From assembly GCA_017609885.1 (NCBI GenBank), contig JAFCDB010000017.1, positions 1-38,598 on the forward strand: DNA of 38,598 nt, given 5' to 3'. This stretch comes from Candidatus Pacearchaeota archaeon (GTDB lineage: Archaea; Nanobdellota; Nanobdellia; Pacearchaeales; GW2011-AR1). The notes under the pieces are model-generated. The model saw only the letters and a list, made by a program, of their open reading frames with translations. It was not told the origin of the DNA and ran no database searches. How positions within the stretch are numbered: the stretch's first letter is position 1; the number at the start of each line of letters is the position of its first letter. Shown here piece after piece: positions 9,472-12,801 of the stretch. The position numbers and the translations under genes were made by a program.

Positions 9472-9783
9472 ATGAAAGAAGAGAGTGATACTGGAGTGAA
9501 GACTTACAGAGAAATACAAACTTCTGAAAATGATTTTTTAATTAATGAAAAAGGGAAGATTATTGCGATTAAATTTCTAAGTGAGCCAAACACATGGATT
9601 CCGCAAAAAAATGAGAAATATATTTTAGCAAGCCAAAATGAAAGATTTTTTCCAGGGATATTGGAATTAGCGAGAAATCATTTAATTTTAATAGTTGAAC
9701 CCCCTGAAAAGTCTGGATTTTATAAAAAACCAATCACTGATATAAGAGAGCTAACAGAAACACTTCCTTGGGAGTTATCTTAG
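9472..9783 (+). CDS. hypothetical protein (103 aa)
   Basis: Complete ORF with a TATA-like stretch upstream (tttaaataaact); the TAG stop lies inside the 8-bp target duplication of the adjacent repeat element. Confidence 0.6.
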   Translation: MKEESDTGVKTYREIQTSENDFLINEKGKIIAIKFLSEPNTWIPQKNEKYILASQNERFFPGILELARNHLILIVEPPEKSGFYKKPITDIRELTETLPWELS

Positions 9784-9916
9784 GGCTTTGGTTAAACCAT
9801 TAAATTTTTGAACATTTTTCTCAATTCCCTACCCGCCCGCCCAGCATTGCTCGACATGATTTGTCTCGCAATGTAGATTTTAAATTGAGAAAAATGTCTA
9901 TGATTTCACCAAAGTC
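9784..9916. mobile_element. MITE-like non-autonomous element, copy 1 (133 bp) with perfect 8-bp TSD TATCTTAG
   Basis: Ends GGCTTTGGTTAAACCAT...ATGATTTCACCAAAGTC; flanked by TATCTTAG at 9776-9783 and 9917-9924; near-identical to 12661-12801. Confidence 0.85.
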
Positions 9917-9958
9917 TATCTTAGTTAACTTTATTAATCCTTAATTTCTCACTAATTT

Positions 9959-11380
9959 ATGGCAAAAAAATTTTACATTACAACTGCGATTGATTATGTA
10001 AATGCAAAACCGCACATTGGACATGCATTTGAAAAAGTTCTAGCTGATGCTCTTGCTCGATATCATAGATTAAAGGGAAGAGATGTATTTTTTTTAACAG
10101 GAGTTGATGAAAACGCACAAAAAAATGTTGAAGCTGCAGAAAAAGCCGGGATTTCGACAAAAGAATTTATAGATACAAACTCTCAATTCTTCATTAAACT
10201 TTGTAAAGAACTAAATCTCTCACATGATGATTTTATTAAGACAACTGCAAAAGAACACTCGAAAGTCGTTCAAAAAATAATTAAAAAAATATACGATAAC
10301 GGCGATATTTACAAAGACACTTACAAAGGGCTGTATTGTGTTGGTTGTGAAGCTTATTACACAGAAAAAGATTTAATAGAGGGAAAATGTCCAGAGCATA
10401 AAAAAGAACCAGAGTTAAGAGAAGAGGAAGCTTATTTTTTCAAACTTTCAAAATATAAAAAAGAATTATTGAAAATAATTCCAAAATATGTTACACCAAA
10501 ATCAAAACAAAATGAAGTTATTCCTAGAATAAAAGAAGAACTAAAAGATATTTGTATAAGTAGAAAAGGAGCAAAATTGGGAATTGATTTTCCAGAGGAT
10601 AATGATTTCAAAATATGGGTTTGGGTTGATGCATTGATAAATTATATCTCAGGATTAAAAAATAAAGAGTCAAAATATTGGCCTGCGGATATTCATGTAA
10701 TTGGAAAAGGAATAAACTGGTTTCATAGTGTTATATGGCCTGCGATTCTTTTGTCAGCAGGGTATAAACTTCCTGAAAAATTATTAGTTCATGGCTATTT
10801 GAATATTAAGGGAGAGAAAATGTCAAAATCATTAGGGAACGTGATAGACCCTTTAAAATTACTGGAAAAATATTCCTCGGACACAATTCGTTATTCTCTT
10901 TTAAGATGCTCTGTATTCGAGGATTCAGATTACTCTGAGAAAATTTTAATTGACAGATATAATAACGAGCTTGCGAACAAGCTTGGCAATTTAGTTTCAA
11001 GAGTTTCTGCTTTGGCAGAGAAATATGGGTTGGAGAAGACTGAGACTAAGTTGGTTAAGAAATTGGAATTGAAGAAAATTGAAAAATATTTTGAGAGTTA
11101 TGAGTTAGACAAAGTGCTTGGAGAGATTTTTAGTTTTGTTGATAAATGTAATTTGTATGTTCAGGATAAGAAGCCGTGGGAGAGTGGAGATAAGAAAGTT
11201 TTGTATGAGGTTGCTGATTCTATTAAGGCGATTTCTATCTTGCTTTATCCATTTATCCCGGAAACTTGTGAGAAAATTGCAAAGCAGTTTGGATTTGAAA
11301 TTAAATATGGAAATATTAATAAACTTTTGAAAGTTGGAAAAATTAAGAAAGGGAAAATTTTATTTGAGAAGATTAAATGA
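9959..11380 (+). CDS. metG: methionyl-tRNA synthetase, catalytic and anticodon-binding domains
   Basis: KFYITTAIDYVNAKPHIGHAFEKVLADALARYHRLKGRDVFFLTGVDENAQK; KMSKS motif GEKMSKSLGNVIDP; CVGCEAYYTEKDL. Confidence 0.95.
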   Translation: MAKKFYITTAIDYVNAKPHIGHAFEKVLADALARYHRLKGRDVFFLTGVDENAQKNVEAAEKAGISTKEFIDTNSQFFIKLCKELNLSHDDFIKTTAKEHSKVVQKIIKKIYDNGDIYKDTYKGLYCVGCEAYYTEKDLIEGKCPEHKKEPELREEEAYFFKLSKYKKELLKIIPKYVTPKSKQNEVIPRIKEELKDICISRKGAKLGIDFPEDNDFKIWVWVDALINYISGLKNKESKYWPADIHVIGKGINWFHSVIWPAILLSAGYKLPEKLLVHGYLNIKGEKMSKSLGNVIDPLKLLEKYSSDTIRYSLLRCSVFEDSDYSEKILIDRYNNELANKLGNLVSRVSALAEKYGLEKTETKLVKKLELKKIEKYFESYELDKVLGEIFSFVDKCNLYVQDKKPWESGDKKVLYEVADSIKAISILLYPFIPETCEKIAKQFGFEIKYGNINKLLKVGKIKKGKILFEKIK

Positions 11381-12008: not shown

Positions 12009-12608
12009 TTACAAAACCCCCCCAACAACCAGCCCGGCAATAATCAAAAGCCCAGAAACAGTAATAAGTTTTCTATAAGGCAACTGAGACAACTGCTTAG
12101 ATAAATAAACAAGTGCATAAACCTGAAACATCGTTGCAAGGACAATCCCTGAAAAAGCATAATAAAAAGGAATTGTTCTATCAAAAAAAAGTGGCGAATA
12201 AGCAATTAAATCATCAAGAATCGTAATAAAAGCCAAAACAAACCCCATCCCCATCAACCTCAAAAAACTCCTCGTGGAGATTTTCTTGAACTTTACTTTT
12301 GCAGGAGGGGCTTTGTGTTTTTTAGAATCTTCTTTATGCCCTAATAATTCAAAATAAATCACCCCTGCTAAAATTACTAAAATCCCTCCGACAATATATC
12401 TGTAATATGGAATTGCTCTTAACAAACTTGAAAAGAAAATCGCAAGCATAACAGCAACACAAACAGCACAAAAAATTCCAAGTGCAAATGCCAACCGTCC
12501 TGCTTTTGTCTTAGTTGCATAAGCAATAAGTGGAATCTGCGTTAAAGTATCATCAAAACCTGTCACAACTCTTGTGAAGAATCCCAAAGAAAAGTATTTC
12601 CAAAACAT
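12009..12608 (-). CDS. polytopic membrane protein, CadD/LysE-like transporter with an internal duplication
   Basis: Six or more hydrophobic segments; two related halves with TGFDDTLTQIPLIAYA and TILDDLIAYSPLFF. Confidence 0.6.
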   Translation of the reverse strand: MFWKYFSLGFFTRVVTGFDDTLTQIPLIAYATKTKAGRLAFALGIFCAVCVAVMLAIFFSSLLRAIPYYRYIVGGILVILAGVIYFELLGHKEDSKKHKAPPAKVKFKKISTRSFLRLMGMGFVLAFITILDDLIAYSPLFFDRTIPFYYAFSGIVLATMFQVYALVYLSKQLSQLPYRKLITVSGLLIIAGLVVGGVL

Positions 12609-12660: not shown

Positions 12661-12801
12661 GGCTTTGGTGAAATCATTAAATTTTTAGACATTTTTCTAA
12701 ATTCCCTACCCGCCCGCCCAGCATTGCTCGACGTGATTTGTCTCGCAATGTAGATTTTAAATTGAGAAAAATGTTATATATCCTATGATTTCACCAAAGC
12801 C
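12661..12801. mobile_element. MITE-like non-autonomous element, copy 2 (141 bp) with perfect 17-bp TIR and imperfect 8-bp TSD
   Basis: GGCTTTGGTGAAATCAT...ATGATTTCACCAAAGCC; flanks tgaaacct (12653-12660) and cgaaacct (12802-12809). Confidence 0.85.

Follow-up and report, generated by a model that had tools for sequence, protein, structure and literature searches.

The closest described systems include transposons that settle beside promoters. The prokaryotic Mutator-like elements TnGBS, ISLre2 and ISKra4 insert 15-17 bp before the -35 box of sigma-A promoters and spare genes, and contact with the initiation machinery has been proposed for them by analogy with Ty3 (PMC3942029). For ISH6, an archaeal Mutator-like IS with an AT-rich 8-bp target, a promoter or intergenic preference was suggested (PMC3942029). 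Non-coding MITEs of Haloquadratum walsbyi, in the passages that describe them, have terminal repeats and duplication length in common with a transposon acting in trans (PMC3119063). The MITE studied here lies in a stretch of 38,598 nucleotides that was analysed as a whole (the window), which is contig C6 of a genome of 750 kb in 37 contigs.

A sequence-only reading of the window had described a 133-bp element with inverted ends and an internal hairpin, flanked by a perfect 8-bp duplication. These features were all recovered: TATCTTAG occurs on both flanks, the element starts with GGCTTTGGTTAAACCAT and finishes with ATGATTTCACCAAAGTC, the inverted match of the two ends extends over 14 of 17 positions, and the hairpin CATTGCTCGACA...TGTCTCGCAATG is present (Table 1). 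Moreover, we found an inner inverted repeat, perfect over 15 bp, which that reading had not mentioned. Four C-runs and the hairpin inside this inner stem form the core of the element. Folding of the focal element as single-stranded DNA gave z = -4.0 and beat all 200 shuffles, and an Rfam search with it matched no known RNA family.

Table 1. Positions of the focal element, its neighbouring genes and the second copy in the window
Feature	Position	Strand	Basis
103-aa ORF, TAG stop in left duplication	9472-9783	+	ORF list
Left target-site duplication (8 bp), TATCTTAG	9776-9783	.	sequence
MITE, 133 bp, without coding capacity	9784-9916	+	sequence, genome copies
Left terminal inverted repeat, GGCTTTGGTTAAACCAT	9784-9800	+	end alignment
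Inner stem, 5' arm, perfect 15-bp inverted repeat	9812-9826	+	
CCCTACCCGCCCGCCC, four C-runs; canonical G-quadruplex motif on - strand	9827-9842	+	
Apical hairpin CATTGCTCGACA-TGATT-TGTCTCGCAATG, covarying between diverged copies	9845-9873	+	
Inner stem, 3' arm	9883-9897	+	
Right terminal inverted repeat, GACTTTGGTGAAATCAT	9900-9916	-	
Right target-site duplication (8 bp), TATCTTAG	9917-9924	.	sequence
TATA-like box CTTTATTA of metG, 12 bp from element edge, 30 bp before ATG	9929-9936	+	
metG, methionyl-tRNA synthetase; start codon 42 bp from element edge	9959-11380	+	
Second MITE copy, 141 bp, duplication TGAAACCT/CGAAACCT (7/8)	12661-12801	+	BLAST, flanks

The element had also been read as inserted exactly after a stop codon. 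The TAG of the upstream 103-aa ORF, for which a Pfam search gave no match, does fall inside the left octamer, but what the insertions have as a rule is the promoter of the next gene and not a stop codon. Here the stop codon merely happens to overlap an insertion spot upstream of the metG promoter. The protein is unaffected because the duplication restores its stop. No empty site could be shown at metG in genomes of the same genus, since the genes upstream of metG do not follow a conserved order there.

The focal sequence is not a product of chance, as the genome contains it about 35 times and the flanks differ from one occurrence to the next. BLAST with the focal element returned about 33 further copies or fragments, a covariance model built from diverged copies added a few more, and the copy number amounts to about 35-40, with lengths of 133-145 bp. 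The - strand gene 12009-12608 has the second copy in the window upstream of its promoter. Most of the complete copies are flanked by an individual duplication in which 7-8 of 8 positions match. Octamers matching at 8/8 were GATTTAGG, GATATTCA, AAATCAAA, CCAAAAAC and TCAATAGA, joined by ATTAATGG and CGTTTTCA at two internally duplicated copies; older copies match at 6-7/8, and two complete copies (L009 and L021) have no duplication. The BLASTN check proposed earlier thus yielded many dispersed copies with 8-bp duplications of different sequence, in line with the earlier view of a transposon without coding capacity. The copies are short, non-coding and dispersed, with terminal inverted repeats and duplications of constant length, as is characteristic of MITEs, and 9784-9916, with TATCTTAG perfectly duplicated on its flanks, is confirmed as a MITE.

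It had further been proposed to look for a transposase gene between matching ends, and a gene of this kind, bounded by the predicted ends, was found in related genomes. The end GGCTTTGGTGAAAYCAT is present in 9 of the 187 genomes of the family, while the reversed control gave no match. In one of these (G100, L095) ends of this type bound a single transposase gene in an element of 919 bp with its own 8-bp duplication, CGTTTATT, and in another (G030, L103) they likewise bound a single transposase gene. The two transposases score 143 and 150.6 bits against NF033579 (cut-off 140) and also match PF01609; relatives found in a search of the genome collection belong mainly to Candidatus Pacearchaeota. 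The partner IS, about 0.9 kb with one ORF, is complete in related genomes. In the genome of the window the same transposase occurs as fragments at contig ends, with no intact gene assembled, and the IS ends at the starts of C23 and C37 have the 8-bp duplication TGTATGAC in common. In the IS5 family the duplication length is specific to the subgroup, and 8 bp may fit ISH1. That a DDE enzyme carries out transposition through a staggered cut is established knowledge for such elements.

The sequence that MITE and IS have in common is confined to the outermost ~13-19 bp, so that an origin of the MITE by simple deletion from the IS was rejected. MITEs in two further genomes (G005 and G151) have the same ends and 8-bp duplications around unrelated interiors, which indicates that the ends are what is mobilised. 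The IS5-family IS (NF033579/PF01609) of about 0.9 kb is therefore the likely mobiliser of the MITE, a cross-mobilisation by the IS5 transposase that we infer from the shared ends and the duplication length. Another transposase in the window, at positions 1-630, is the 3' part of an IS6-like gene (PF13610) cut by the contig start; it was rejected as partner, as its 3' end is without the MITE repeat. Besides, two IS 5' ends (L148 at the end of C34 and L150 at the end of C16) have the octamer CGTTTTCG in common, one inverted relative to the other, which looks like a single insertion with two 5' ends.

Outward from the element edges, the duplication is followed by four mostly A bases, a TATA box and a start codon. 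With a TATA scoring matrix composed after some flanks had been seen, the best TATA lay 10-15 bp out at 32 of the 87 edges (shuffle control: mean 2.7, maximum 8 in 300), including 21 edges at exactly 12 bp. A total of 31 edges face a start codon at a distance of 35-60 bp, and this distance is exactly 42 bp in most cases. Counted by insertion event in the genome of the window, a TATA at 10-16 bp was present in 30 of 44 (68%; null 17%, p about 5e-14) and a start codon at 40-46 bp in 24 of 44 (55%; null 5%, p about 1e-19), where the nulls are the noncoding positions of the window and the total may be 43, as the C34-end and C16-end may be one event. The TATA was missing from the expected place in 14 of the 44 insertions. 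Both ends of MITE and IS were found facing promoters. Many genes of the window have a TATA at about -30, which is expected for leaderless archaeal genes; accordingly, the register fits the general promoter layout and the cut is locked to the promoter. It is thus shown statistically that MITE and IS tend to insert just upstream of the TATA box, at a distance of a few bases, and about 42 bases before the start codon.

Similar results were obtained in other genomes, from which IS5-type insertion sequences were collected automatically by end repeats and duplication. Six of them have GG-type ends and a 9-bp duplication, and in five of these a TATA lies 14-16 bp out; the two with TGCTGTGTTG ends have none at that distance. 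Another end, GGCTCTGTTGAAAA, was searched for in the class and matched in 27 of its 383 genomes, with almost no matches for the control. For this second set of IS5-type ends, the GGCTCTGTTGAAA repeat across the 27 genomes, which was collected after the matrix had been fixed, the best TATA was 10-16 bp out at 25 of 67 edges with a peak at exactly 14 (13 edges), compared with a mean of 1.6 and a maximum of 5 in shuffles. This signal is diluted, as some of the 67 edges are chance matches.

We consider it highly probable that the MITE is moved in trans by an IS5-family transposase which integrates preferentially just upstream of the archaeal core promoter. The evidence for targeting is statistical. 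The enzyme would recognise GGCTTTGGTGAAAYCAT ends, including those of the non-autonomous MITE, and make an 8-bp staggered cut that gives rise to the 8-bp duplication. Its target would consist of the duplicated octamer, about four A-rich bases at the BRE position and the TATA box, with the start codon 42 bp from the edge, and either element end can face the promoter. An insertion at this place would spare coding sequence and core promoter, which would let many copies build up in a compact genome.

The sharpness of the register separates this reading from an improbable alternative, in which insertion is random, or biased to AT-rich or intergenic sequence, and purifying selection removes hits in genes and core promoters. 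Genes are dense, so that the space upstream of the TATA is one of few harmless places, and surviving copies are mostly intergenic. Such selection, however, predicts a lower limit and not the observed peaks, with starts at exactly 42 bp and TATA boxes at exactly 12 bp, or 14 bp in the second set, and little beyond. Moreover, random noncoding insertion accounts for the null fractions given above, not for those observed.

A fixed regulatory element, that is, a promoter-proximal structure or a terminator kept for host function, appears very improbable to us, even though the element is located at promoters, similar cores occur in other genera and its core structure is conserved. In ten diverged copies the inner stem and hairpin are kept by compensatory changes, with nine pairs changed on both sides (0 of 500 shuffles as high), and the C-runs are kept too. 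Palindromes can be corrected by template switching; compensatory changes therefore need not mean selection for function. The dispersed copies with individual 8-bp duplications refute the regulatory explanation as it stands, the same ends are found on a transposase-bearing element, and at the nucleotide level the MITE is absent from genomes of the same genus.

The same layout with unrelated stems, and with other or no recognisable ends, was found in three further genomes, G179 (L167, L176, L182, L184), G202 (L168, L175, L180) and G219 (L171, L177), and in the genome of the window itself (L197-L204). It comprises an outer stem, CCCNNCCCNCCCNCCC, a small hairpin whose loop is often TTC or TTCG, an AT-rich linker and a closing stem; some of these elements have other terminal repeats. 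The C-rich pattern was discarded as a general mark of such elements, as most of its matches in other genomes are without stem and hairpin. G179 also contains dispersed hairpins in which the four-C-run motif itself forms the loop (L235, L236, L238, L240, L242) and the stem has undergone compensatory changes, for example ATCCTATA/TATAGGAT and ATTCTATA/TATAGAAT. A second small element in the genome of the window (L154, C4:11764-11892) has GACTTTGTTGAAAA ends, a C-rich tract, a hairpin and an inner stem, and it also adjoins a TATA box, at 14 bp.

In copies that look truncated or internally duplicated, 107-114 bp are preserved, counted from one intact end, and contigs break off 109-115 bp into an element (C21, C33, C25 and most IS ends). 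The truncated copies look like artefacts of contigs that were joined by assumed k-mer overlap. A true 5'- or 3'-truncating mechanism for copies with duplications was rejected, since their lengths equal those at contig ends. One transposase copy (L145, C15:1-552) is interrupted by ten N, which shows scaffold joining inside the repeat. That some or all copies are assembly artefacts is hardly credible: the many contigs finishing inside elements and the near-constant length of the odd copies are what an assumed k-mer overlap would produce, but the focal copy is complete on both sides, as are at least ten more, and most of these have individual duplications.

Within the preferred reading of promoter-directed transposition, the site could be recognised in two ways: the enzyme may read promoter sequence or shape, or it may be guided by bound TBP/TFB, which we consider because such a complex would occupy a place whose upstream border coincides with the cut. 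We advance only tentatively, and with some doubt, that IS5-type transposases are guided by bound TBP-TFB, which would give archaea a counterpart to the targeting of Ty3 by TFIIIB; each insertion would in that case mark a used promoter. If promoter targeting holds, promoter-targeted transposition reaches archaeal TATA promoters and the IS5 family, beyond bacterial sigma-A promoters, and it suggests a common strategy for life in very compact genomes. With a register this tight, promoters of uncultured archaea could be mapped from insertion edges, and guidance of the transposase by TBP/TFB becomes a directly testable question.

Our literature search, which took in few subscription journals, found promoter-register targeting described for no archaeal or IS5-family element. 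The MITE/IS pair is a new example of a promoter-targeting mobile element. The MITE resembles those of Haloquadratum walsbyi in being non-coding and in having only terminal repeats and duplication length in common with its transposase source; the host group differs, and the passages on the Haloquadratum elements report no promoter register (PMC3119063). The putative partner fits the IS5 family (NF033579, transpos_IS5_2) in exceeding the curated cut-off, in its size of ~0.9 kb with one ORF, and probably in its terminal repeats and 8-bp duplication. ISH6 is likewise archaeal with an AT-rich 8-bp target; its preference, however, was suggested from the duplicated motif only, whereas here a register to TATA and start was measured, and the family differs. 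As in TnGBS, ISLre2 and ISKra4, the distance upstream of promoters is fixed, the hallmark of promoter-targeting transposons of this kind, and genes are spared. Those elements use sigma-A promoters, mostly in one orientation, whereas here archaeal TATA promoters are used in either orientation, and the transposase is of the IS5-type DDE_Tnp_1 and not the Mutator-like (p-MULT) type that marks the TnGBS kind. The archaeal element appears to work like promoter-targeting transposons of the TnGBS kind and is not a member of them.
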